Below, piece after piece: positions 1-18,843 of a stretch of 26,014 nucleotides of DNA. Source of the stretch: a virus; IMG/VR virus record IMGVR_UViG_3300010397_000083, positions 1-26,014 of that record; one strand, given 5' to 3'. Within the stretch, counting starts at the first letter, position 1, and every line of letters begins with the position of its first letter. The translations under genes and the position numbers were made by a program. Below the pieces are notes generated by a model. The model was given only the letters and a program-made list of their open reading frames with translations, searched no databases and was not told the DNA's origin.

Positions 1-423
1 CGTCTGCCTGTTGGTGGGGTGGATGCCGCGGCGGCATTCGGCGGGGCACCACCGGCGGGTCCACAAGTAGCATATGCACCACCGGCAGGTCCGCCGGCTG
101 CGTATGCTCCACCAGCGGGTCCACAAGCTGCGTACGCACCACCGGCAGGTCCGCAAGCCGCGTATGCACCACCGGCGGGTCCGCAAGCTGCGTATGCACC
201 ACCGGCGGGTCCGCAAGCTGCGTATGCACCACCGGCGGGTCCGGCGATACCCGGCGCTGTAGCTCCCGCGCCGGACTTCTTGAATCCCCCGATGGCACCG
301 CCGCCCGCCGCCCCGGCGCACGTAATGACCGCCAAGGCGAACGGTGCCACTTACGAACAGTTCAAACAGAATCCGGCGTGGACTGACGCGCTGCTTATAT
401 CCGAGGGGTACATGCTGCCGTAA
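1..423 (+). CDS. C-terminal part of Pro/Ala-repeat protein, probably phage ssDNA-binding protein (DUF2815-like); 5' truncated
   Basis: The reading frame is open from the first base, so the gene begins upstream of the window. An internal GTG at 19 is not preceded by a Shine-Dalgarno sequence. The visible part is a low-complexity linker of six decapeptides of the form APPAGPQAAY, then a Pro/Ala stretch, then a compact tail containing GATYEQF, AWTDALL and EGYML. From memory, tails of the form ATYEQ...WTDALL..HGYM end phage DUF2815-type single-strand DNA-binding proteins, which are often encoded close to a family A polymerase, as here. The acidic globular domain is not visible, so the family call is an inference. 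Two adjacent stop codons (421-426) end it. Confidence 0.6.
   Translation, partial: RLPVGGVDAAAAFGGAPPAGPQVAYAPPAGPPAAYAPPAGPQAAYAPPAGPQAAYAPPAGPQAAYAPPAGPQAAYAPPAGPAIPGAVAPAPDFLNPPMAPPPAAPAHVMTAKANGATYEQFKQNPAWTDALLISEGYMLP
46..243 (+). repeat. In-frame 30-bp tandem repeat coding for the decapeptide APPAGPQAAY
   Basis: Six complete 30-bp units start at 46, 76, 106, 136, 166 and 196, followed by a partial seventh from 226. Units at 166 and 196 are identical, while earlier units differ mostly at third codon positions. The period is a multiple of three and the unit codes for a Pro/Ala-rich linker, so this is a coding minisatellite likely to vary in copy number by slippage. Confidence 0.9.
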
Positions 424-450
424 TAACGAGGGTCTAAGTGTTAGGTAAGA

Positions 451-498
451 GTCGAAAAGAGCCTAGAACACAAAAGCTCCTTGACCGCCCTTTTTTTT
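451..498 (+). terminator. Possible Rho-independent terminator after the ssDNA-binding-like gene
   Basis: An imperfect stem (GTCGAAAAGAGC at 451-462 with GCTCCTTGAC at 476-485) is followed by CGCCC and eight T residues at 491-498. The five-base gap between stem and T-run and the mismatches make it a weak candidate. Together with the element at 498-553 it fills the gene-free stretch 424-572. Confidence 0.3.
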
Positions 499-553
499 AT
501 AACGGCTTGAGCTGAACCGCCGCGCAGCGGTCGGCTTCGAGCGTTTTGTTATA
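498..553 (+). repeat. attC-like hairpin element A (TATAAC...GTTATA)
   Basis: The ends are perfect inverted repeats: TATAAC at 498-503 and GTTATA at 548-553. Inside, ACCGC (516-520) pairs with GCGGT (527-531). After a bulged A515, 510-514 pairs with 532-536. After a bulged T537, 505-509 pairs with 538-542. The stem is about 15 bp with two G-T pairs, single-base bulges and the loop CGCGCA. Terminal AAC/GTT boxes, an unpaired spacer and an imperfect stem with extrahelical bases match integron attC architecture. The outer bases do not match the RYYYAAC/GTTRRRY consensus exactly. No T-run follows, so it is not an ordinary terminator. Confidence 0.5.
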
Positions 554-572
554 TTTACGAAAGGAGGATTTG

Positions 573-893
573 GTGAAACCTTACTATACTGAAAGGTTCT
601 TACACGAAGAGGCGGCACAGATGGGGATAGACCCCGCATTATCAAGATACACCCGGCTGTTTCCTGATGGCGAGCCGGTTGCACGGTGGGAAATTACGGG
701 CATGAATCCGCTTCAGCTTGACTTGTACCCTATCGGAAGGAAGAAGCAGTCTATCGCTTCAGTCTATCATACTACTGCATGGCACACATGGGATGAGGAC
801 GGCATAGGCGGGGCGAATGGCGGGGAAGAGGTGGACATTGACACTGCCATTATTGAGGCATTCAAGGCGTGTCTGCAACAGGGGTTTTTGTGA
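573..893 (+). CDS. Hypothetical protein, 106 aa, first gene of accessory cluster
   Basis: I do not recognise a family. The start is taken as GTG 573 because AAAGGAGG lies at 560-567, at good spacing; an earlier TTG at 546 falls inside the upstream hairpin element. The protein is soluble-looking, with an N-terminal ERFLHEEAAQMGI stretch that looks helical and a central WEITGMNPLQLDLYP segment. No signal peptide or membrane segment is seen. It is the first of six closely packed genes (573-1930) that look co-translated: its TGA overlaps the next ATG as TGATG. Base composition is AT-richer than in the polymerase downstream. Confidence 0.75.
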   Translation: MKPYYTERFLHEEAAQMGIDPALSRYTRLFPDGEPVARWEITGMNPLQLDLYPIGRKKQSIASVYHTTAWHTWDEDGIGGANGGEEVDIDTAIIEAFKACLQQGFL

Positions 894-1090
894 TGTTGTG
901 CCCTGAGTGCGTAGGCATGAACGGATATTTAGACCCTTCCTGCCAGCTCTGTTGCGGCAGAGGAACGATTACTGATGATCTGGTGGGTGAGGATTTTGAC
1001 GATGATAGCGGCGAACCGGATTGTCTAGGAGATTACGCCCCGGGCTCGTCAACGTGCGATTTTTGCAAATATCAGGAGGAATGCAAATGA
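893..1090 (+). CDS. Cys-rich zinc-ribbon-like small protein, 65 aa
   Basis: The start is ATG 893, overlapping the previous stop in TGATG; a GTG three bases upstream is also in frame. The N-terminus has paired cysteines (C3/C6 in CPEC, then C17, C20, C21) followed by an acidic linker, with a C-terminal STCDFC...EEC motif. Two CxxC knuckles separated by a loop suggest a structural zinc site. No catalytic motif is visible. The stop overlaps the next start (ATGA, 1087-1090). The function is unknown; proteins of this kind are common in variable early regions of phages. Confidence 0.65.
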   Translation: MLCPECVGMNGYLDPSCQLCCGRGTITDDLVGEDFDDDSGEPDCLGDYAPGSSTCDFCKYQEECK

Positions 1091-1239
1091 AACCTGTTCA
1101 CTGGTTCAATGGTGAAAAAATACTCTGCGGGATTAAGGTAGACAATGCCCCGGCGTTTCTGATGCACGAAAAGGACAAGGGCGAAGTTACTTGTAAGCGG
1201 TGCCTGCATGGGCTGAAACATGACTGGGGGAAGAAATGA
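1087..1239 (+). CDS. Small zinc-binding-type protein, 50 aa
   Basis: The start is ATG 1087 because AGGAGG lies at 1074-1079 with about 7 nt spacing; the in-frame ATG at 1081 abuts the Shine-Dalgarno. The pattern VHWFNGEK..CG followed by VTCKRCLHGL is a recurrent small phage/plasmid protein motif (His-Trp, CG, then a TCxxC knuckle), known to me only as hypothetical proteins. C14, C36 and C39 plus histidines could bind one zinc. The gene overlaps both neighbours by ATGA. Confidence 0.7.
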   Translation: MKPVHWFNGEKILCGIKVDNAPAFLMHEKDKGEVTCKRCLHGLKHDWGKK

Positions 1240-1418
1240 GGATTTACAGCGAACTGGTTGAAAGTTGCGAAGAGTGCCCGGCATTCATGGAGGATAATTT
1301 CGGCGTGAATGTTCACGGCTGTTGCCTAATACCGAATGCGGAAATTATATCTACTAAGCAATTCCCTGATTTTTGCCCATGCCCGGAAGATCCAGAGTAC
1401 CCGGACACGGTTGAATGA
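1236..1418 (+). CDS. Small Cys-rich protein, 60 aa
   Basis: The start ATG 1236 overlaps the previous TGA as ATGA. Cysteines sit at 11 and 14 (SCEECP), 29-30 (GCC) and 47 and 49 (FPDFCPCP). The layout, a CxxCP motif, a central Cys, then an (I/F)PxxCPxP ending, matches a widespread group of small phage proteins of unknown function that I recognise by pattern only. Probable metal-binding fold. The gene ends in ATGA with the next short gene. Confidence 0.65.
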   Translation: MRIYSELVESCEECPAFMEDNFGVNVHGCCLIPNAEIISTKQFPDFCPCPEDPEYPDTVE

Positions 1419-1570
1419 AATACGGGAAATGTGAAAAATCTCCGCACGGCTGCCAGTTCTGCACAGTTTATTGGAGTTGTGATGATAAGCGGCAATTGCC
1501 GAAACGCCAGTCACCAGGGAAAAATGAAGCGTGGTTTGTGGCTCGGACATACCCAAAACAGGAGGCATGA
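1415..1570 (+). CDS. Very short Cys-rich protein, 51 aa
   Basis: ATG 1415 overlaps the previous TGA (ATGA) and the frame runs to TGA 1568-1570. The product begins MKYGKCEKSPHGCQFC, with Cys at 6, 13, 16 and 22 and a basic middle (KRQLPKRQ). It is the fourth Cys-rich product in a row, and the seamless overlap supports it as a real gene despite its size. The next gene's Shine-Dalgarno (AGGAGG) lies at its 3' end. Function unknown. Confidence 0.6.
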   Translation: MKYGKCEKSPHGCQFCTVYWSCDDKRQLPKRQSPGKNEAWFVARTYPKQEA

Positions 1571-1573
1571 CAA

Positions 1574-1930
1574 ATGAATTTGAGATTTGGAAAAGGTGAC
1601 ATTTTAATAACTCAGTGCGGCAATGGGGAAATTGAACACGTGCTGTTTGAACAAGGGCGCGGCGCTGGCAAGGTCGGTGCTAAAAATCCTGATGATCTGG
1701 ACAGGCAAGACGGCATGATGGTATCGGGTGAAGATATTGATAATGCCACAGTGACATTCACTTTTGACAATCCTGCAAGCTGTGCAGTGGTCATGGAAAA
1801 ACTCCTTGTAAATATGGTGGCATTCCGGAAAAACGGCAAGGTTGTTGGCCCTGAGAATATCGACCTTGTTGAATCGGTCAATTACCTCTGGGATGAACTT
1901 CACGGCAAATACGATGAGGTTGCAGAGTAA
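1574..1930 (+). CDS. Hypothetical protein, 118 aa
   Basis: ATG 1574 follows AGGAGG at about 9 nt spacing and lies 3 bp after the previous stop. The sequence is a mixed alpha/beta type with DNATVTFTFDNPASCAVVMEKL and a C-terminal helix SVNYLWDELHGKYDEVAE. There is no CxxC motif, unlike the preceding four products, and no membrane segment. I do not recognise the family. It closes the first accessory block and is followed one base later by attC-like element B. Confidence 0.7.
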   Translation: MNLRFGKGDILITQCGNGEIEHVLFEQGRGAGKVGAKNPDDLDRQDGMMVSGEDIDNATVTFTFDNPASCAVVMEKLLVNMVAFRKNGKVVGPENIDLVESVNYLWDELHGKYDEVAE

Positions 1931-1931
1931 A

Positions 1932-1991
1932 TATAACGGCTGTTGCGTGAACAGCGCGGGTTTTTGCGCCTGTTTCCACGCAATGGTTATA
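1932..1991 (+). repeat. attC-like hairpin element B (TATAAC...GTTATA)
   Basis: TATAAC (1932-1937) and GTTATA (1986-1991) are perfect inverted ends. TTGCGTG (1943-1949) pairs with CACGCAA (1977-1983), then AACAG (1950-1954) pairs with CTGTT (1970-1974), leaving T1975 and C1976 bulged on the right arm. A short CGC/GCG stem with another bulged C closes on a T-rich loop. It has the same architecture and the same leading bases (TAACGGCT) as element A. It begins right after the stop codon of the 118-aa gene. Confidence 0.5.
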
Positions 1992-2024
1992 GTGCGAACC
2001 ATCAAATTTGCAAAGGAGACAATT

Positions 2025-2300
2025 ATGGGAAAAGCGAAAGAATCAATTTACGACGGCAAAACAGTATTGGTGCCGATGGCGGACGTTCAGCACATTGAAA
2101 AACTGGTCCGCAAAAATAAGCCCACTGACACTGAGTTGATACCGAACGGCCTACATGCAGTTACTAGGAATACTAGGTGGAATTTTGAGCATGACACCTA
2201 TGAAAATGCCATTTATATTCCTGAAAACGAAGCGGCGGATTTTCTCAAAGCATGGCAAATTTTCCGGTCAGAAATTGACGACATCGACGAAGGGCCATAG
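2025..2300 (+). CDS. Hypothetical protein, 91 aa
   Basis: The start is ATG 2025 because AAAGGAG precedes it at 6-7 nt; longer in-frame starts would run through the hairpin element. The protein starts MGKAKESIYDGKTVLVPMADVQHIEKL and has an alpha/beta composition with an acidic C-terminus (SEIDDIDEGP). The N-terminal half reads like small phage proteins in which a displayed field value is compared with a residue (VLVPMADVQHIEK), but I cannot assign a function. It stands alone between two TAACGG elements, as a single-gene cassette would. Confidence 0.7.
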   Translation: MGKAKESIYDGKTVLVPMADVQHIEKLVRKNKPTDTELIPNGLHAVTRNTRWNFEHDTYENAIYIPENEAADFLKAWQIFRSEIDDIDEGP

Positions 2301-2305
2301 AGCAC

Positions 2306-2331
2306 TATAACGGTTCGGCGGATGACCACCA
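2306..2331 (+). repeat. Partial TAACGG element C
   Basis: TATAAC at 2306-2311 followed by GGTTCGGCGG repeats the left end of elements A and B just after a stop codon (TAG 2298-2300). No matching GTTATA arm or long stem follows, so it looks like a degenerate or half copy. It fills the gap before the next gene's Shine-Dalgarno (AGGGGGAA). Confidence 0.35.
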
Positions 2332-2342
2332 TAGGGGGAATT

Positions 2343-2837
2343 ATGGGAAAAGTTGACGAGTTGTTTGACGGTAGCAATGCACATCTGTTGAACGGAGGAG
2401 AGGGCGGTTCATCTGCTTGTTATCCCCTCTCTGCCGATCTGTTGGCTATTGGCGAGTTGGTTCGTACACAAGACAACCGAATTACTGATGCGCCGCTGTT
2501 CATCGTGCAAGAGAAAGTCCGGGATTACGGCTATGACACCCGATACACCGACAATCATATCTGGCTAGATGATGAAGGCTGCGAGGTCTCCAAGGCCAAA
2601 GCCAAGAAACTGGAAGCGAAATATGACGACACACTTGAAGAGCCTGACACTTTCAGTCGTGCCGGCTACAAGGATCGCTGGGAGTTTGTCACGGCCTGTT
2701 TCACGGAACAGGGCTGCAAGGATTTTCTGCAACGGGATGGCCACAATCACGGCGAAACTCGGATTTACGCCGCTGGAAGCTACCGTAATGAGGAATATCG
2801 CACAGTGTGGGACTTCCTGAAATCACTACAGGGATAA
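2343..2837 (+). CDS. Hypothetical phage protein with C-terminal WEFVTACFTEQGCKDFL domain, 164 aa
   Basis: The start is ATG 2343, preceded by AGGGGGAA; an in-frame ATG at 2322 has no such site. The C-terminal part, with RWEFVTACFTEQGCKDFL, GHNHGETRIYAAGSYRN and a final hydrophobic helix VWDFLKSLQG, is a pattern I recall from many hypothetical proteins of proteobacterial phages. The middle holds QEKVRDYGYDTRYTD. Function is unknown. The first bases (ATGGGAAAAG with AATT before it) are nearly the same as in the 91-aa gene, which suggests a shared leader or duplication. The stop TAA is part of element D. Confidence 0.75.
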   Translation: MGKVDELFDGSNAHLLNGGEGGSSACYPLSADLLAIGELVRTQDNRITDAPLFIVQEKVRDYGYDTRYTDNHIWLDDEGCEVSKAKAKKLEAKYDDTLEEPDTFSRAGYKDRWEFVTACFTEQGCKDFLQRDGHNHGETRIYAAGSYRNEEYRTVWDFLKSLQG

Positions 2838-2891
2838 CGACAAAATTGTGCTGCCGTAGCGCAGCGGAGGTCAGTCACGAATGACTGGTTA
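2835..2891 (+). repeat. attC-like element D (TAAC...GTTA) with two hairpins
   Basis: TAAC at 2835-2838 includes the stop codon, and GTTA lies at 2888-2891. Inside are two clean hairpins: GCTGC/GCAGC (2850-2854 and 2861-2865) and a perfect CAGTCA/TGACTG stem (2872-2877 and 2882-2887) with a 4-nt loop. The layout differs from A and B, with two small stems instead of one long bulged stem. The next ATG starts 6 nt after GTTA. Confidence 0.35.
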
Positions 2892-2896
2892 AAATC

Positions 2897-3307
2897 ATGG
2901 ACAATTTATCTACACAGACAATACCAATACAGTATCCTGAATGGATGCAACGAACCTATGATGATGTTTTTATTGGTGCTCGGTGGAACTATGCTTCCAT
3001 TGAGGACGTTGTACGCAGTGGCGCAATACACCTATTTGACACGGTTAATATGTGGTGTGGCGCAGAAATAAGTGATGTTGTATGGACGGATAATTCCGAA
3101 CACGCAACATGCCCTCTTTGCTTGCGCCGAAAATTAAGATATTTGCGAGATTTCCATACTGAAGAAATTTTGCAGCCAATCAATCAATTAATATTTGAGA
3201 TAGAGGGTGAATACAGGCAATTCGCATCGGAAAGTGAACTAGCAGAACTAATGCGAATTGCCAAACGCCATCCTTCCGAGTGGAGAAAACTTGGGAGCAG
3301 ATTTTAA
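2897..3307 (+). CDS. Hypothetical protein with H-CG-TCPLC zinc-type motif, 136 aa
   Basis: ATG 2897 is the only sensible start; no clear Shine-Dalgarno precedes it, perhaps because the upstream hairpin occupies the leader. H45, C54-G55 and C72-P-L-C75 form the same H...CG...TCxxC pattern as the 50-aa protein at 1087, so a zinc site is likely. The C-terminal half is helical and charged (EGEYRQFASESELAELMRIA). This is the most AT-rich gene of the window by eye, unlike the GC-rich polymerase. Its TAA stop is shared with element E. Confidence 0.7.
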   Translation: MDNLSTQTIPIQYPEWMQRTYDDVFIGARWNYASIEDVVRSGAIHLFDTVNMWCGAEISDVVWTDNSEHATCPLCLRRKLRYLRDFHTEEILQPINQLIFEIEGEYRQFASESELAELMRIAKRHPSEWRKLGSRF

Positions 3308-3349
3308 CGGCTTGAGGCTTTGCGGGTTCACCGCAACAGCCAATGGTTA
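3305..3349 (+). repeat. attC-like hairpin element E (TAAC...GTTA)
   Basis: TAAC (3305-3308) contains the stop codon, and GTTA lies at 3346-3349. GGCT (3316-3319) pairs with AGCC (3338-3341) and TTGCGG (3320-3325) with CCGCAA (3331-3336), with C3337 bulged and loop GTTCA. The leading bases TAACGGCTTGAG are the same as in element A, and the trailing AATGGTTA matches element B. This shared outer sequence shows a repeated element and not just random hairpins. Confidence 0.5.
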
Positions 3350-3384
3350 CCCTTTGGGGTAGCGAAGCTAAAAGGAGCAATATC

Positions 3385-3621
3385 ATGGCGGGTGCAGATT
3401 ATAGATCGTGCGATGTATGTGGCGGCAAGGCTTTTTATGATGCCGATTTGCAATACGAGCAGGAGGATATGTGGAACAAAGACCGTCCTTTTGCCAAAGT
3501 AGCAGGAGAGGTACTTTCAAAATTTGAGCGGTACAAGCTAGGCAATGTGGGAGATTGGTCGGTTCTTTGCGCGACATGCTCAAAAACCCATAAAACTCAG
3601 ATAGTGGCGATAAAAGGATAA
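3385..3621 (+). CDS. Zinc-ribbon-like small protein, 78 aa
   Basis: ATG 3385 follows AAAGGAG at 6-8 nt spacing. CDVCGG near the N-terminus and LCATCSKTHK near the C-terminus give two CxxC pairs that could close one zinc ribbon around a helical middle (PFAKVAGEVLSKFERYKLG). No enzymatic motif is seen. The stop TAA is fused to another TAACGG sequence. Function unknown. Confidence 0.7.
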   Translation: MAGADYRSCDVCGGKAFYDADLQYEQEDMWNKDRPFAKVAGEVLSKFERYKLGNVGDWSVLCATCSKTHKTQIVAIKG

Positions 3622-3650
3622 CGGTTTTGCGATAATCTGGTAACAGGTCG
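3619..3650 (+). repeat. Partial TAACGG element F
   Basis: TAACGGTTTTGC begins at the stop codon of the 78-aa gene, matching the left boundary of the other elements (C also has TAACGGTT). No convincing right arm with GTTA follows, so it is either a decayed copy or the array end. It occupies the 39-bp gap before the next short gene. Confidence 0.3.
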
Positions 3651-3660
3651 ATCTCATGTA

Positions 3661-3822
3661 ATGCTGTATCACCCCGGCAGCAGACGCGGCAGGTTTAAGA
3701 TTGACGTTGACGGTGTATTCTGGCGGGAATGCGGATTTTCCGAGGCAATGGAAAAGATCAGAAAGAGTTGTAAACGGACACCACTGTATGTTTACGATTT
3801 AACAGGGAGCTGTCGATTATGA
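3661..3822 (+). CDS. Short hypothetical protein, 53 aa
   Basis: ATG 3661 opens a frame to TGA 3820-3822 that overlaps the start of the clamp-like gene in ATGA. The product is basic (MLYHPGSRRGRFKIDVDGVF..., then MEKIRKSCKRTPLYVYDL). The start has only a weak upstream purine-rich site. The tight overlap with the next gene suggests translational coupling to the replication genes. I do not recognise it. Confidence 0.5.
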   Translation: MLYHPGSRRGRFKIDVDGVFWRECGFSEAMEKIRKSCKRTPLYVYDLTGSCRL

Positions 3823-4391
3823 TACCCATAAAAGAATTTAAGCAAGCCGTCAATCTGGCGGTCATCCACACGTCGGGCCACTCGCCTGACCTCAACCACG
3901 TGTTTTTTGACTTGTCGCAGTCCGGCACCCTGCTGGTCCACGGCTGTACCTGGCAACAGCTGGCATCCATCAGCCTGGCGGTCAGTCACCCGCACGCCGG
4001 TAGTCCGATATTTGCTCTGCCCACCGCTGCGGCAAAGGAACTGCTTGCCAAGCTGTCGGGCGAACGGGTGACGGTTGCGCTGTTCGACGGGCAGATAATG
4101 TTTACCGACGGCATCGAGTGCCTGATGTACGCCGACGGTCGGCCCACCAACATACCGGATTTTACCAGCCTGCTCGGCAGGATGCCACCTGAAGCGAACG
4201 GCGAAGCGCGGTTTGACGCAGTGATGCTTGCCGACATGCTGCTTAATGCCCGTAAGCTGCTGGTGCCGGACCGTCCGACCGTCAGACTGCGGATCGCTGG
4301 GGAAGGACCGTTGTACATCCAGCTGATTGTCGTTTTGCCGGTAATTCGGTCGGCCACGCTGGTACTGATGTATGAGATGGTGGCGGGGTGA
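3819..4391 (+). CDS. Small sliding-clamp-like protein (DnaN/beta-clamp fold), 190 aa
   Basis: ATG 3819 follows AGGGAGC and overlaps the preceding stop. The pattern resembles bacterial beta clamps: FFDLSQSGTLLVHGCTWQQLASISL, FALPTAAAKELLAKLSGERVTVALFDGQIMFTDG, RFDAVMLADMLLNARKLL, then a strand PTVRLRIAGEGPLYIQ and a terminal VVLPVI segment where DnaN has its conserved MPMR-type end. DnaN has about 370 residues and three domains; 190 residues would hold roughly two short domains. Its 4-nt overlap with the DNA polymerase supports a processivity role. The fold is inferred from sequence pattern only, and another DNA-binding role is possible. Confidence 0.55.
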   Translation: MIPIKEFKQAVNLAVIHTSGHSPDLNHVFFDLSQSGTLLVHGCTWQQLASISLAVSHPHAGSPIFALPTAAAKELLAKLSGERVTVALFDGQIMFTDGIECLMYADGRPTNIPDFTSLLGRMPPEANGEARFDAVMLADMLLNARKLLVPDRPTVRLRIAGEGPLYIQLIVVLPVIRSATLVLMYEMVAG

Positions 4392-6493
4392 GGGTACCCG
4401 CCGGCACAAGCTGGTCAACAATCCTGCCGTCCATGGACTTTGAAGTTTATTCAGAAGCCGGGTATTACCAGACTCCGGACGGACGGTGGCATGGCGTAAC
4501 CAAGACGGGTCCCGGTCTGGCGGCTGTCGGTGCGCCGGTCTATTCCGAACATCCGTCTACGGTGGTGCTGTCCCTCGCCTACGACCTGAAAGACCGTATC
4601 GGTCCGCGGTTGTGGGTACCCGGCATGTCGCCACCCACCGATCTATTTAACCACATCGCGGCGGGTGGTCTGATCGAGTCCCACAACTCGGGGTTTGAGT
4701 TCTACATCTGGCATAACGTCTGCCACAAGCGGATGGGTTGGCCGCCGCTGCCCGTCAGTCAGCAACGCTGCTCAATGGCAAAGTGCCGCGCCCACTCGCT
4801 ACCCGGCAAGCTGGAAAAAGCCGCCGAAGTGCTGCGGGTTGCCGAACAGAAGGACAGCAAAGGCGCAGCCCTGATCCGCAAGCTGTGCGTTCCCCAGCAG
4901 CCGACCGCCAAGCGACCAGGCGGACGATGTACCGACCCCACTGCACAAGCCGAGCTGTACACCTACAACATTCAGGACATAAAAGCCGAATCAGCTATCA
5001 GCGAGCGATGCCCCGACCTGTCAGCCGCCGAGCTGGAACTGTGGCAGCTCGACCAGCGCATCAACATCCGAGGTGTTCACATCGACCAGGAAGCGTTGCA
5101 GAACTGCATTATGATATTCCGGCAGGCCGAGGCACGGTACACCGCCGAGCTGCAGCAGCTTACCGGTGGTGCCGTGCAGTCAGCCGGTGAGTTGGCGAAG
5201 ATAACCGCCTGGCTGGCCGCGCAAGGACTGCCGACCGCCTCCCTGGATGCCGAGGCGGTTGAAAGTCTGCTGCAACGGGCTGACGTGCAGGGTGCGGTCC
5301 GGCGGGTCCTTGAAATCCGGTCCATGCTTGGCGCCGCTTCGGTCAAGAAACTGTTTGCCATCGAGCGCCGTCTGTCAGCGGATGGGCGGCTGCGGGACTT
5401 GTTTGCGTTCTGCGGGGCTGACCGGACAGGCAGATGGGCGGGCCGCGGACCTCAGCCGCAGAACATGCCCGGTGGTCTGCCTACTGAAGAGGTCGAACGG
5501 GCACTGTTGGTCATGGCGAGCCGCGATTTGTATACCGTCGAACAGGCGTATGGCAATGCGGTAGACACCATTTCCGGCTGTCTGCGTGGGCTGTTTGCCG
5601 CATCGCCGGGCCGCGACCTGATCTGCTCGGACTTCTCAGCTATCGAAGCCGTCGTGATGGCGTTTATGGCGGGGGAAGAATGGCAGATGGATGTATTCAA
5701 CACCCACTGTAAGATATATGAAGCGACGGCCAGCAAAGTGACAGGGCGGCCCGTCGAAGAGTACTTGAACTATAAGAAAGAAAACGACAAGCATCATCCA
5801 CACCGTAAACTGGGCAAAGTAGCTTCGCTGGCGTCACAGTACGGTGGGGGTCTTGGTGCCTGGAAAAACTTCGGTGCCGACGAGTTCATGACTGACGACG
5901 AGATACAGGAAAACGTCAAGGCATGGCGGATCGCCAGCCCGGCCATTGCTGGTCAGGGGTACCAGGGACAGCCGCTGGGTTTTTGGTATGGCCTGCAAGA
6001 TGCGGCATTTTTAGCAGTTCAACATCCGGGCCGGTGTTATCAGTTTCGAGACGTAGCTTATGGCGTGAAGGACAACGTGCTGTACTGTCGTCTGCCGTCG
6101 GGCCGCAATCTCACATACCACACGCCGCGGCTGGAAATGGGTACAACTTCATGGGGTAAACAGACACTTCGCCTGACCTACATGGGGTGGAACAGCAACT
6201 ACTTGAATGGACCGGTCGGCTGGATGAAACTCGACACCTACGGGCCGAAGCTGGCGGAAAATGTTATTCAGGCCGTAGCCCGCGACATTCTGGCGTACAG
6301 CATGTTGAACCTGGATAAAGCCGGGTACCCGATTGTACTCCATGTGCATGACGAAATTGTAGCCGAAGTACCGAAAGGTTGGGGGTCGGTCGAAGAGTTC
6401 GAGCGGATAATGTCACAGATGCCGCCGTGGGCCGCCAGCTGGCCGGTTAAGGCAGCTGGCGGCTGGCGCGGTCGGCGGTACCGGAAGGACTAG
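4388..6493 (+). CDS. DNA polymerase, family A, with 3'-5' exonuclease domain
   Basis: Replicates the phage genome. The GTG start at 4388 gives 701 aa and overlaps the clamp-like stop (GTGA); an ATG at 4433 is a possible alternative. Exonuclease motifs: DFE at residues 17-19 (DFEVYSEAGY), ESHNSGFE, and YTYNIQD. Polymerase motifs: motif A SDFSAIE with D415 and E420, motif B R473...K477...Y485-G486, and motif C HDE at 654-656. The C-terminus (MPPWAASWPVKAAGGWRG...YRKD) matches the ending usual in phage family A polymerases linked to DUF2815-type SSBs. No 5'-3' exonuclease domain is present. The stop overlaps that of the convergent gene. Confidence 0.95.
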   Translation: MRVPAGTSWSTILPSMDFEVYSEAGYYQTPDGRWHGVTKTGPGLAAVGAPVYSEHPSTVVLSLAYDLKDRIGPRLWVPGMSPPTDLFNHIAAGGLIESHNSGFEFYIWHNVCHKRMGWPPLPVSQQRCSMAKCRAHSLPGKLEKAAEVLRVAEQKDSKGAALIRKLCVPQQPTAKRPGGRCTDPTAQAELYTYNIQDIKAESAISERCPDLSAAELELWQLDQRINIRGVHIDQEALQNCIMIFRQAEARYTAELQQLTGGAVQSAGELAKITAWLAAQGLPTASLDAEAVESLLQRADVQGAVRRVLEIRSMLGAASVKKLFAIERRLSADGRLRDLFAFCGADRTGRWAGRGPQPQNMPGGLPTEEVERALLVMASRDLYTVEQAYGNAVDTISGCLRGLFAASPGRDLICSDFSAIEAVVMAFMAGEEWQMDVFNTHCKIYEATASKVTGRPVEEYLNYKKENDKHHPHRKLGKVASLASQYGGGLGAWKNFGADEFMTDDEIQENVKAWRIASPAIAGQGYQGQPLGFWYGLQDAAFLAVQHPGRCYQFRDVAYGVKDNVLYCRLPSGRNLTYHTPRLEMGTTSWGKQTLRLTYMGWNSNYLNGPVGWMKLDTYGPKLAENVIQAVARDILAYSMLNLDKAGYPIVLHVHDEIVAEVPKGWGSVEEFERIMSQMPPWAASWPVKAAGGWRGRRYRKD

Positions 6494-7047
6494 GGATCGA
6501 GGTTCTGCGCGGCGGGGTTGAGAGCCGTCACAATAGCAGCGATGTTCTGCAGCTCGGCAACATGCCCCGTATCTGAAACGACACCTGACGCAGCGACAGC
6601 CTGAAGTACGGCGCTGGTAGCGACCGCAGCACTTTCGGGGGTACTGCCGGCGGCAATGTGCGCTTCGAGGGCCGACTTGATTGCCAGGTCCAGACCGTCG
6701 GCTATCTTCGCACCTTCGGCAACTGCGGGGGCCGCCTGACCGCAGAACGGCGCAATGACTTCCGACAGCTTGGCCGCTTTGTCGATCAGGGTGAGGCATT
6801 CATCCATGATCGGTTCGGCCTTGACGAGTTCTTCTTTCAGACCTGCAAAAAACGAGGTAATACCGGAAAGTTGGAGCATTTTTTCTTCCTCCTGATGTAG
6901 TACAGCCTTCCATGGCTGCCGGGTAATGAGAGCCCACAAGAACGGCCCCACGCTGTTCTGAATGACGGCTTTCGAGTTGGCGAGAAAATGATCGGCGGCT
7001 GCAACCGCAGTAGCCACACTGGCGATGGTTGGTATGACGATGCTCAT
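6490..7047 (-). CDS. Hypothetical Ala-rich protein, last gene of the late operon, 185 aa
   Basis: ATG 7047 overlaps the lipase stop (ATGA) and has GGGAGG upstream. The N-terminus (IPTIASVATAVAAADHFLANSK...VGPFLWALI) is mildly hydrophobic, and the rest is Ala-rich helix with no clear membrane segment. An in-frame ATG at residue 57 has a much stronger Shine-Dalgarno (AGGAGGAAG), so a 129-aa product starting MLQLSGITSFFAGL is likely as well or instead. It sits in the lysis block behind endolysin and lipase, so a lysis or virion role is possible, but no family is recognised. The stop lies in a CTAG shared with the polymerase stop. Confidence 0.65.
   Translation of the reverse strand: MSIVIPTIASVATAVAAADHFLANSKAVIQNSVGPFLWALITRQPWKAVLHQEEEKMLQLSGITSFFAGLKEELVKAEPIMDECLTLIDKAAKLSEVIAPFCGQAAPAVAEGAKIADGLDLAIKSALEAHIAAGSTPESAAVATSAVLQAVAASGVVSDTGHVAELQNIAAIVTALNPAAQNLDP
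6877..6893 (-). promoter_or_regulatory. Strong internal ribosome binding site and start (residue 57 of the 185-aa gene)
   Basis: On the minus strand AGGAGGAAG (6893-6885) lies a few bases before ATG 6879-6877, in frame with the longer gene. It is stronger than the site at the annotated start and would give a 129-aa product, so two forms may be made from one frame, as in some phage lysis genes. Confidence 0.5.
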
Positions 7048-7619
7048 TCTATATCCTCCCGTAAGGCGAGTTTTGCCAGATACGTTGCCATAAAATGATC
7101 GGAAATGTCAATCGGCAATCCGTCGTCCGTCAGCACGATAGGGTTGGTCAGGTGCCGGTACATAATCCGGGGGATGCCTGGTACCGGATCGTCCTCGCCG
7201 ATAACCCTTACATGGTCGAGTACCGGCGTACTGAAGAACCGGAAGTATACCCGCGGCGAGCCAAAAGTAATCAGCCGGCAGTTAAGCCGTTCGGCCAGCA
7301 GAGTTGCCACCGCGCCGCCCAGCGAATGCCCGGTGGCAATGATTGGCTTGCCGGTCGGAATGGCCCCCAGCAGCCCCGCCGCACATAACTTTTGAAATGA
7401 ATTGACGAACCCGGCGTGTGCGATGAATCCCCGGCAGGATTTCTTCGGTATCACATCGGCATCCCGCAGCCAGTTTTCCGCGTTGGCTGTACCTCGGATA
7501 ACCACAATGATGTGGGTGTCGGTCTGGCGGATGCCGTACCGCAGGTCTTCAACTTCGACGTACCCGGTAGCGGCATCGTCGTAACTCTGTTTGCATAGTT
7601 CGGCGCATAGCTTGATCAT
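7044..7619 (-). CDS. Class 3 lipase (alpha/beta hydrolase), 191 aa
   Basis: Probably hydrolyses an ester bond in a lipid. The nucleophile motif GHSLGG spans residues 97-102 with Ser99. VIRGT (40-44) matches the conserved RGT of Lipase_3 proteins. D143/D144 (GEDDPVPGIP) and H175 in DHFMATY complete a Ser-Asp-His triad at the spacing usual for the family. No secretion signal is seen, so release would depend on the holin. ATG 7619 lies 1 nt after the endolysin stop, with GGAGG inside the endolysin 3' end. Its place in the lysis cassette suggests a role in breaking the envelope, comparable in logic to mycobacteriophage LysB, although host membrane lipid is the likelier substrate here. The fold assignment is firm; the biological role is inferred. 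Confidence 0.88.
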   Translation of the reverse strand: MIKLCAELCKQSYDDAATGYVEVEDLRYGIRQTDTHIIVVIRGTANAENWLRDADVIPKKSCRGFIAHAGFVNSFQKLCAAGLLGAIPTGKPIIATGHSLGGAVATLLAERLNCRLITFGSPRVYFRFFSTPVLDHVRVIGEDDPVPGIPRIMYRHLTNPIVLTDDGLPIDISDHFMATYLAKLALREDIE

Positions 7620-10459: not shown

Positions 10460-12049
10460 TCAGAACTCGATTCCATGCCGTTCCCCCGCTTCGATCTGTT
10501 CCCGTGCTGCGTCAAACAGGCTGTCGTCGTAGTCCAGCTCGTCGGCTTCGATCTGCTTGGCGCGGTCAAGAACCAGCTCTATCGCTTCATCCAACGTATC
10601 AGCCCATGCAACAACCGCGCCGAAGAATCCCCCGTTGCCATTGGGCACACAGTAAAACTCGCCGTCCCGCATCGTGTGGTTTTTCAGCTTGACAAACTGG
10701 CGGATTGCTTTCGGGATGGACACATGGAGCTCATGGTGCTCATGCCATGCCGAGGTCAGAATGATTTCCGCACAGTACGCAGCTTTTGGTTCGAGTTCTG
10801 GCACGATGCCATGGGCGATCTGCCAGGTTGCCTCCGACCAATTTTCGTAGAGCTCGCAGAGGACTTCCCCCGGAGGACTCGGTACCCTGCAGGTAGCATC
10901 GATATAGTACGGCTTGCCATCCTTCGTCACCCGGATTTCCGTACTGTAGTTGCCGTTGTAGCCCAGCTTGGCAAGTACCGGGCCGAAAGCGTCATTAATG
11001 CCCTTGACGATTTCCGGCGGTTCTTCAAACACCTTGCCGCAGAAACCTTTGTCCTTAATTTCATACCCGATAATGCAGTTGCCTGTAAACTCACCATCGA
11101 CACAGTAGCCGTCATAGCCTACTTCCAAGTCGGCATCGATCTTGTGCTGTACGAGGATTTCCATCGTATCGGACGCCGTGCCGACCCTCTTCCGCAGGTC
11201 GTCGAGGAATGGCTTGGACTGTGCCAGACTGGTAAACTTGCGGGACTCGAAATCGCCACGGTGCAGGTTCTTCAGGAAGAGGGTCTGCCCGTCGTGCTCC
11301 GTCAGGTACTTTTTCAGGTCATCCATTCCTTGCGCTTGGTAGGTTTCAGCACATGGCAGCTCCAATTCGCCGAGGATGTCAAGGAATTTCACCTTGTCAA
11401 TCTCGACCCGCTCGCCGCGGCCTGACCCGAAGACCTTGTAGCCCTTGCCGCGCAGGTAGTGTTGCAACTCGCCATCATAGCAGTCGAAGAAATAGACAAC
11501 ATCCGCTTCGTCTAAGTGCTTCCAGAAATCCGCGATCCGCTCGACATTCGGTAGACCCGCACCAATAGTGTGTTTCTGGCTGGTCGGATATGCGTCGGCA
11601 TCGGCGAGATAGTACATTACACGCTTGTATTTTTCAGCCAACTTTTCGGCGCAGTACAGGTACAGACCGCCGCGGTCATAGACGATGGCCGTCTTATCCG
11701 ACAGGTCCACCGCCTCGGCAGCGGTCGGTTCCGGTTCCGGCTCGGGCGGCGGGGTGCGTTCCGCCTTGGTAAGTTTTTGCACGACACCCTTGGCAGCAGC
11801 GTAGATGTGGCTATGCAGCCCCTCCGGTGGTAGCTTGCCCCTCGTCTTGCCGAAGATGTCCGGCTCGAATCGTTTCAACCAGTCGAGTGCCATCAGGCGG
11901 GTTAGCCACATCTTCGGGGCGTTGGATGGGCTGAAACCCTCCAGGCCGCCGGTCAGGTGATGGCGTTCCCGAATAGTTGCATGGCTGTCCGCCACTGTGC
12001 CTATAAACAGCTTGCCGCGCTGTTTGACCGCCGGGTTAAGGTGTGGCAT
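10460..12049 (-). CDS. ATP-grasp superfamily enzyme (PurD/carboxylate-amine ligase-like), 529 aa
   Basis: Likely joins a carboxylate to an amine or thiol using ATP. After an unrecognised N-terminal region (1-95) and a Pro/Glu linker (about 100-108) comes an ATP-grasp architecture: a pre-domain (TAIVYDRGGLYLYCAEKLA...DADVVYFFDCYDG), then DKVKFLDILGELELPCAET, a lysine-containing strand (TLFLKNLHRGDFES), QHKIDADLEVGYDGYCVDGEF, and a late metal-site segment STEIRVTKDGKPYYIDATCR. ATG 12049 overlaps the upstream gene by 14 bp and has AGGAGG. The substrate is unknown. It sits among virion genes with rSAM, GNAT and glycosyltransferase genes elsewhere in the operon. Confidence 0.78.
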   Translation of the reverse strand: MPHLNPAVKQRGKLFIGTVADSHATIRERHHLTGGLEGFSPSNAPKMWLTRLMALDWLKRFEPDIFGKTRGKLPPEGLHSHIYAAAKGVVQKLTKAERTPPPEPEPEPTAAEAVDLSDKTAIVYDRGGLYLYCAEKLAEKYKRVMYYLADADAYPTSQKHTIGAGLPNVERIADFWKHLDEADVVYFFDCYDGELQHYLRGKGYKVFGSGRGERVEIDKVKFLDILGELELPCAETYQAQGMDDLKKYLTEHDGQTLFLKNLHRGDFESRKFTSLAQSKPFLDDLRKRVGTASDTMEILVQHKIDADLEVGYDGYCVDGEFTGNCIIGYEIKDKGFCGKVFEEPPEIVKGINDAFGPVLAKLGYNGNYSTEIRVTKDGKPYYIDATCRVPSPPGEVLCELYENWSEATWQIAHGIVPELEPKAAYCAEIILTSAWHEHHELHVSIPKAIRQFVKLKNHTMRDGEFYCVPNGNGGFFGAVVAWADTLDEAIELVLDRAKQIEADELDYDDSLFDAAREQIEAGERHGIEF

Positions 12050-17452: not shown

Positions 17453-17911
17453 TCATAACTCCTTGTGCCACGCCGTACCCGTAGCGGAATACCCGGTCTT
17501 TTCCAGCAGCTTGCCCGCCGCGCCGGCGGACAGCCGACTGCCAACTGCGGACAGCATAGCACCCTTGTCTCGCAGATGCGGCTCGGCGAATCCAAGCAAA
17601 ATACCCATCAGGTTGATACGCCGGGACGGGTGCAGGTCAGTTGCAGTATGCCAGACGATTTCCTGGGCGATGGCAATCTGTCGCTGATATGGGGTGCTAC
17701 GGAGGATATAGGCGAAAAACACGCCGTCAATCCGCCCTGTCGACTCGGCTATGACCAGCACGCTGTCCGGCCCGTTGCAAGGGGCAAACGTCGTGTGAAT
17801 ATGCTCGTCCTCGTACAGCCCTTTCAGGGGGCCAAAGGCTATTTCGTCGTAGTAATCCCGGCAGGCCGTCACGATGGCGGGTATGTCTGACGGATCGGCA
17901 AGCCGTATCAC
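17453..17911 (-). CDS. GNAT-family N-acetyltransferase, 152 aa
   Basis: Likely transfers an acyl group from CoA to an amine. The start is GTG 17911, overlapping the radical SAM stop as GTGA. The opening IRLADPSDIPAIVTACRDYYDE is typical GNAT (beta1-alpha1), followed by SVLVIAESTGRIDGVFFAYIL, a beta4-alpha3 segment (AQEIVWHTATDLHPSRRINLMGILLGFAEPHL) and a C-terminal LLEKTGYSATGTAWHKEL, where GNATs carry the F/Y-x-x-x-G ending. The acetyl-CoA P-loop is not canonical. Similar genes are frequent beside ejection genes in podoviruses, with unknown substrates. Confidence 0.8.
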   Translation of the reverse strand: MIRLADPSDIPAIVTACRDYYDEIAFGPLKGLYEDEHIHTTFAPCNGPDSVLVIAESTGRIDGVFFAYILRSTPYQRQIAIAQEIVWHTATDLHPSRRINLMGILLGFAEPHLRDKGAMLSAVGSRLSAGAAGKLLEKTGYSATGTAWHKEL

Positions 17912-18843
17912 TGCCCGAGCCCTTCGTTGTAAATCATAGCCTTGACAAAATCCATAACTTGCCCATCCTTGGTAGTGTAGGTGGGGGGTGTATCTATGTC
18001 GTCCAGAATTATGTTCGTTACGTTATACCAATTCACGACGGCATACAAGATATTGTTGTGTTTTAACGGAAAATAGGTAATTTTTCCCGCCGCCGGTAAC
18101 TCGGTCTGCCCAGGCTGTTCGGAAAACCAGCGCACGATGTCCGAAGTGAACAGCCGGGCGGATTTCTGTTCCGCCCAAATTGACGACGCGATCTTGATCC
18201 GGTAGCAATGAAAGTAGTCGGAATGCGCTTCGGCAAACCGCACAATGGCGGGCAGCTGCTCCAGTGAATCCACCACGAAAAACAGGGTGGTCAGCTTCAG
18301 ACCGAGTTTCTTGATGTTGGTGAGTGCCCGCCCGAACCAGAGCGCTTCAGAGTGAAAGGATAGCCCGATCTGCGTCAGGCCGTCCGCATCGGTCAGCTGG
18401 TCGGCAAATACCACCGCTCGGTTAAGGTCTGACAGGCCGTAGCCGTTGGTCAGCATGGTTGTCCGCCCGACGGTTTTTACCCATTCGATTATTTCGTGGA
18501 TCTGCGGGTGAATGGTCGGCTCGCCGCCGGTCAGGATGTATGGTCCTGGCGCTCGCTGACAGTCAGCCAGGATGTCGTCAATCGGGCGGTTGTCGACATC
18601 CTTCCGATAGTAACAATACCGGCAGCGCAGATTGCAACGGGTAGTCACATCGACCAGATGCCCGTCGTAAATTGTACCGCTGTCATGTTTCTGGCAAAAG
18701 TCATAAAACCCGGCATCGGATTCGACTATCGAATGAAACCGTCCGTGGTCGGGACAGTCCTTCCGCATGACCACCCATCGGCCGTCCGGGTAGACGGTGG
18801 CGGGTATCTCGGTATAGCAGGTCGGGCAGAGTGATTTTACCAT
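17908..18843 (-). CDS. Radical SAM enzyme with N-terminal zinc ribbon, 311 aa
   Basis: Uses a [4Fe-4S] cluster and S-adenosylmethionine to start radical chemistry. Cluster motif C70-N-L-R-C74-R-Y-C77, and the SAM-binding GGEP at 106-109. The N-terminus has C6-P-T-C9 and C30-P-D-H33-G with PATVYPDGRWVVMRKDC between them. That is the zinc-ribbon-like start known from radical SAM proteins of the tetraether-lipid-synthase/MJ0619-like group in archaea and anaerobes. The C-terminal half is variable, without an obvious SPASM cluster. ATG 18843 lies 1 nt after the upstream stop, and the gene overlaps GNAT by GTGA, so the pair are probably co-translated. The substrate is unknown. Confidence 0.88.
   Translation of the reverse strand: MVKSLCPTCYTEIPATVYPDGRWVVMRKDCPDHGRFHSIVESDAGFYDFCQKHDSGTIYDGHLVDVTTRCNLRCRYCYYRKDVDNRPIDDILADCQRAPGPYILTGGEPTIHPQIHEIIEWVKTVGRTTMLTNGYGLSDLNRAVVFADQLTDADGLTQIGLSFHSEALWFGRALTNIKKLGLKLTTLFFVVDSLEQLPAIVRFAEAHSDYFHCYRIKIASSIWAEQKSARLFTSDIVRWFSEQPGQTELPAAGKITYFPLKHNNILYAVVNWYNVTNIILDDIDTPPTYTTKDGQVMDFVKAMIYNEGLGQ

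Follow-up and report, generated by a model that had tools for sequence, protein, structure and literature searches.

The stretch analysed here, referred to as the window, is 26,014 nucleotides long and represents a linear, incomplete 26-kb fragment from IMG/VR. In its left part, a series of small genes is inserted in the replication region of a tailed phage, with a gene of that region on either side. These small genes form five cassettes that all point in one orientation and follow each other head to tail, with attC-type sites between neighbours. The features are as follows, with attC being used in the sense that is argued for below:

19-423, + strand: 3' part of a proline-rich replication-region gene, left backbone; its C-terminal part matches the positional counterparts in L003 and in other polymerase relatives
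498-553, + strand: attC site A, TATAAC at 498-503 and GTTATA at 548-553; model matches; copies in four other viral contigs
549-1986, + strand: cassette 1, several small ORFs (573-893, 893-1090, 1087-1239, 1236-1418, 1415-1570 and 1574-1930, all +); ends GTTATATTTAC/GTAAATATAAC
1932-1991, + strand: attC site B; fold z=-3.8; cassette ends on both sides; models not significant
1987-2419, + strand: cassette 2, ORF 2025-2300; ends GTTATAGTGC/GCACTATAAC
2306-2426, + strand: attC site C, long; its R' box GTTATCCC at 2419-2426 pairs with 2831-2838
2420-2888, + strand: cassette 3, ORF ending at 2837, phrog_3205 family; ends GTTATCCC/GGGATAAC
2833-2891, + strand: attC site D; matches to models R1 and R2; fold z=-2.3
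2889-3346, + strand: cassette 4, ORF 2897-3307; ends GTTAAAATC/GATTTTAAC
3303-3352, + strand: attC site E; fold z=-3.2; 96% copy in L376; no model match
3347-3622, + strand: cassette 5, ORF 3385-3621, phrog_19621 family (E=1.1e-14); ends GTTACCCTTT/AAAGGATAAC
3613-3640, + strand: R'' box of site F; pairs with the left end of cassette 5; without an attC-like fold
3819-4391, + strand: right-hand neighbour of the array in the backbone; shares 32% identity with its positional counterpart in L003; clamp-like by label only
4388-6493, + strand: family A DNA polymerase (phrog_17, E=1.5e-90); backbone marker used for finding relatives

The flanking genes permit a comparison with phages in which this place is differently occupied. 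The polymerase of L003 is about 70% identical to that of the window, and the gap between the counterparts of the two array-flanking genes measures 358 bp there, as compared with 3.4 kb in the window. SppYZU01 has about 0.4 kb at this place, which holds one small ORF, and Scuro has 47 bp, and judged by their gene order these three are phages of the same arrangement with an empty or short gap instead of the insert. The SppYZU01 gene at the right-flank place has no BLASTP similarity to the window gene, and the comparison with the named phages therefore rests on gene order; the window gene itself (3819-4391) gave no Pfam match and no family match. Neither the left border of the array (424-498) nor the right border (after 3622) resolves into a clean insertion. 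In the stretch 424-498, which separates site A from the last backbone gene, there are an extra TAACG, a GTTAGGT box (440) and then a run of eight Ts, and this stretch is possibly the original insertion boundary or a terminator. We also considered it as an ORF-less first cassette or an attI-like boundary, and its ends pair poorly. At the other side, no right end of site F was found, and site F is probably a truncated last attC.

The strongest signal, which was absent from the list of the earlier note, is the complementarity of the two ends of each cassette over distances of 300-1400 bp. In an integron cassette, its own start and its own R'' box form the outer attC stem in the excised circle, and complementary ends are therefore expected of such a cassette. 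Here, each segment between two sites begins, after the G of the preceding site, with TT(A), so that GTTA and a private extension stand at its start and the reverse complement of that extension, in the R'' box, stands at its end. The pairing is perfect over 11 bp in cassette 1 (at 548 and 1937), 10 bp in cassette 2 (1986 and 2311), 8 bp in cassette 3 (2419 and 2838) and 9 bp in cassette 4 (2888 and 3308), and nine of ten positions match in cassette 5 (3346 and 3622). The four perfect pairs are the only GTTA/TAAC pairs of at least 8 bp in 401-3700, dinucleotide shuffles contained a mean of 0.12 such pairs per shuffle, and the head-to-tail chain of four compares with a maximum of one in 3,000 shuffles. 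A chain search by GTT alone rather than GTTA resulted in many chance chains and was discarded. In six bacterial arrays, complementarity within cassettes is 3-13 bp (median 9) and within sites mostly 3-7 bp (median about 5), and for the window we obtained 11, 10, 8, 9 and about 9 for the five cassettes and 4-6 for the sites; genuine bacterial arrays and the window thus show the same pattern.

The region had originally attracted attention by the word TAACG at or just after the stops of the small genes. The listed words are present on the + strand at 500, 1934, 2308, 2835, 3305 and 3619, together with an unlisted copy at 424. As a bare word, TAACG is not enriched in the window (31 observed versus 42 expected), and its value therefore lies in its positions, while the word count as evidence in itself had to be dropped. 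In the genes that end at 2837, 3307 and 3621, the R'' box includes the TAA stop codon, and in those that end at 1930 and 2300 the stop codon overlaps this box or just precedes it.

A covariance-model search for attC sites, as had been suggested for a check, was carried out with two models. From sequence collected beside integron integrase genes, 18 attC sites were picked by box and stem rules without the use of window sequence. The model made from them (R1) yielded 131 matches in 20 stretches beside bacterial intI genes, some of which had supplied model sites, and 108 of the R1 matches were used for the second model (R2). Both differ from the IntegronFinder model, and their E-values, including those given here, are rough. 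Site A was matched with 27.9 bits by R1 (E=2.5e-5) and 36.8 bits by R2 (E=2e-6), and site D with 17.2 bits (E=0.014) and 22.7 bits (E=0.0027), R2 having been run on the 26 kb with filters off. A CALIN is recognized by at least two nearby attC sites that a model identifies, and sites A and D, identified by the 108-site model, are 2.3 kb apart. Site B reached 10 bits with R2 (E=1.8, not significant), R2 did not find sites C, E and F, and with R1 none of these four was significant either. As model support is limited to A and D, the case for B, C, E and F rests on the cassette ends, the folds and, for E, a copy elsewhere. R2 found nothing at E<=0.01 among 33 related phage records.

Folded as single-stranded DNA, the bottom strands of B (z=-3.8), E (z=-3.2) and D (z=-2.3) are more stable than shuffles. 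Of the sites A, B and E, for which bulged stems had been claimed, B and E are thus among those that fold better than shuffles, and the free energy of A is no better than that of shuffles (z=-0.8), although A, like D, fits the structure of the R2 model. Sites C and F fold poorly by themselves; for C, we paired by hand a proposed L stem of GCGGATGACC and GGTTCATCTGC, in which the 3' arm has an additional T. Site C extends to about 2426 and thereby into the apparent start of the third gene as it had been described, and alignments of relatives of this gene start only at about the same position. The perfect TATAAC/GTTATA ends noted for A and B are indeed there. So is the misfit of the outer bases to the consensus RYYYAAC/GTTRRRY, as the boxes are GTTATAT, GTTATAG, GTTATCC, GTTAAAA and GTTACCC, yet this is no objection to attC: arrays beside bacterial intI genes contain GTTATAT/ATATAAC boxes, and the strict consensus is therefore not a defining feature.

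If these sites are recombination sites, gene content in related phages should switch exactly at the GTT boundary, and this is what the copies of site A show. The 19-nt 5' arm of site A has exact matches in four other viral contigs, and the five copies are about 96% identical from AAC to G|TT, one of them being one base shorter with a divergent 3' arm, whereas the flanks are only about 27% identical over 45 bases on the left and about 28% on the right. Conservation ends at AAC and G|TT, and gene content therefore switches at the predicted boundary between otherwise identical sites. L376 likewise contains, between different flanks, a 45-nt copy of site E with 96% identity. Together with the complementary ends and the attC model matches, this content switch bears out the proposal that the small genes were assembled as cassettes. 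The array that had been placed at 573-3621 stands, with its start moved to 498. The first cassette holds several ORFs, and their number of roughly six is unusual for an integron cassette and counts against a CALIN. Other searches with site A gave no copies: none was found in plasmids, a single weak 25-nt partial match in named phages was not accepted, and two matches with one mismatch in bacterial genomes are not attC by the model. The loose pattern TAACGGCT-N-GTTATA occurs in at least 120 stretches of IMG/VR, and as the loci searched contained no attC by the model, we treated these occurrences as chance.

Arrays are also found in other viral contigs, whose relatedness was judged by protein comparison of the contigs only. 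Two further members of the polymerase family of the window carry arrays at other places, one of them by way of an inferred contig join. In G410 (locus L004, polymerase 44% identical), a 41.7-bit attC and two cassettes, one of which encodes a methyltransferase, are located downstream of the polymerase. In G405, a copy of site A is followed by a Mom gene and, further on, by a PAPS-reductase-like gene. G405 and the record of L205, whose polymerase is 61% identical to that of the window, derive from a single metagenome, and an exact overlap of about 95-103 nt, made up of tandem repeat, links their ends, which is why we take them as one phage. A second large array is on the - strand at 1-4700 of L376, a part of the 56.8-kb contig G404. 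Seven sites were recognized there by eye, four of them also by R2, and it shares with the window site A, site E and the family of ORF 893-1090, of which it has two homologs (43% and 75%); its cargo includes two methyltransferases, one of the MT-A70 type and one C5 cytosine methyltransferase. The ORF of cassette 3 belongs to phrog_3205 (E=1.8e-29), a family that corresponds to the C-terminal part of ead/Ea22-like proteins, and genes of this family form an attC-bounded cassette with 8-bp ends in L296 and stand directly behind an attC in L361. No phrog_3205 protein was found in 398 Pseudomonadota genomes, in a search run without a positive control. The 52.7-kb record of L296 (G408) has 13 attC matches in three places, among them the spans 447-7185 (+) and 44279-46391 (-). 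Some neighbouring sites of G408 bound true cassettes with 7-9 bp ends. Between others there are phage genes, for example for a dUTPase, and the ends are not complementary, so that these look like separate insertions around backbone genes.

These data bear on the idea that a piece of a bacterial integron was captured once by illegitimate recombination and is now only decaying in the phage. The truncated appearance of site F, the one mismatch in the ends of cassette 5 and the lack of an integrase in the record would be in line with such a fossil. We nevertheless regard it as unlikely. The four perfect end pairs speak against it, and the near-identical copies of site A beside different genes in five contigs and the arrays at different places within one polymerase family rather suggest a repeated and recent traffic of cassettes. 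One attC subtype, phrog_3205, the C5 cytosine methyltransferase and the Cys-rich family of ORF 893-1090 all recur in different phages. Tentatively, and with some reserve, we consider that phages may share a circulating pool of integron cassettes and would, rather than carrying them by accident, routinely swap accessory genes by means of host integrases. The cassettes of such a pool, rich in DNA-modification and phage-type genes, were unseen in the small sample of bacterial integrons that we covered. The Mom, MT-A70 and C5 methyltransferase genes in the related contigs suggest that some retained cassettes help against host restriction.

As had been noted before, no integrase is visible: a search with TIGR02249 found no integron integrase in the window, and none of ten related or attC-bearing records has an IntI above the curated cut-off (265 bits). 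A complete integron would have an intI gene and attI beside the array; neither was found, and since the records are fragments, the absence of an integrase is weak evidence. An alternative is that a phage-encoded recombinase other than classical IntI serves the array and is encoded on the missing part of the genome. The incomplete record leaves room for it, and in G406 and G407 the IntI model weakly matches sequences that resemble tyrosine recombinases (27-35 bits). These matches are far below the cut-off, however, and may be ordinary phage integrases, and the attC-bearing G404, G405, G408 and G410 are without any IntI-model match, which makes this explanation highly improbable. Probably, a host IntI acts in trans on the phage attC sites. 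It is known that in vivo recombination with attI1 takes place at attC sites from other virulent phages, with a preference for the bottom strand (PMC9892861), that single-stranded DNA in replication or phage infection enables attC folding, and that the SOS response, by which integrase expression is chiefly triggered, can be set off by phage infection (PMC8946536). The phage would thus infect an integron-bearing host, whose IntI would bind the folded bottom strand of a phage attC and recombine it, and cassettes would thereby enter or leave the phage genome. They would be transcribed together with the rightward replication-region genes of the phage and carried to new hosts, and those useful to the phage would be retained.

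The view that the hairpins are phage RNA elements at gene ends (terminators, processing sites or elements for translation coupling) without any recombination has next to no probability: it fits the position of the B, D and E hairpins immediately after stop codons and the weak terminators that attC sites are thought to contain (PMC9892861), but it leaves the complementary ends 300-1400 bp apart unexplained, as well as the occurrence of one site beside various genes, with conservation breaking off exactly at AAC and G|TT, and the matches to a model made from integron attC sites, and Rfam gave no match.

We therefore regard it as almost certain that the region 498-3622 represents a CALIN, an array of integron cassettes lacking an integrase, in the genome of a tailed phage. 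CALINs in phages are already known, and a 2023 survey described such arrays in 21 phages (Qi et al. 2023, PMC9892861). The window is a further example, and it shares with them the attC-bounded cassettes in one orientation without an integrase, there in virulent or uncharacterised phages, the methyltransferase cargo, and the occurrence of several ORFs between attC sites. The phages and the attC subtype are different, and what is added to the known cases is the recurrence of one attC subtype and of some cassette gene families in several viral contigs, together with insert-free relatives. With sedentary chromosomal integrons of Pseudomonadota, the window has in common the attC architecture, the single orientation and complementary cassette ends of similar length; it differs in its location in a phage replication region and in that no intI or attI was found. 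Phage morons and other accessory gene blocks are likewise inserted among backbone genes, whereas the units of the window have attC-type borders and complementary ends. Integrons have mainly been studied as platforms of bacterial resistance and adaptation. In five viral contigs, one attC subtype stands beside different genes, which suggests that phages use bacterial integrons to trade genes, and with three members of one polymerase family carrying arrays at three different places (one via the inferred join), an exchange of genes, anti-restriction genes included, via host integrons becomes directly testable.

As to the encoded proteins, neither Pfam nor NCBIfam revealed a function for the cassette proteins of the window, with a Pfam search of the phrog_3205 stretch alone left out, and a search for relatives of the products of 573-893 and 1574-1930 found none. 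The product of 893-1090 is small and Cys-rich and has a sub-threshold likeness to the anti-TRAP protein RtpA (E=0.065), which probably reflects a shared zinc-binding pattern only. The proline-rich gene to the left contains tandem repeats of 30 nt at 46-240; tandem repeats of this gene also lie at the starts of G405 and L205, where the gene appears to have broken an assembly. Elsewhere in the window, a 529-residue protein encoded on the - strand at 10460-12049 resembles ATP-grasp proteins by eye, without a match in Pfam or PHROGs. The phage structural region encodes, on the - strand at 17453-18843, a radical SAM protein in which Pfam identifies an HMPTM-type zinc ribbon at the N-terminus, and an acetyltransferase-like gene overlaps this radical SAM gene.
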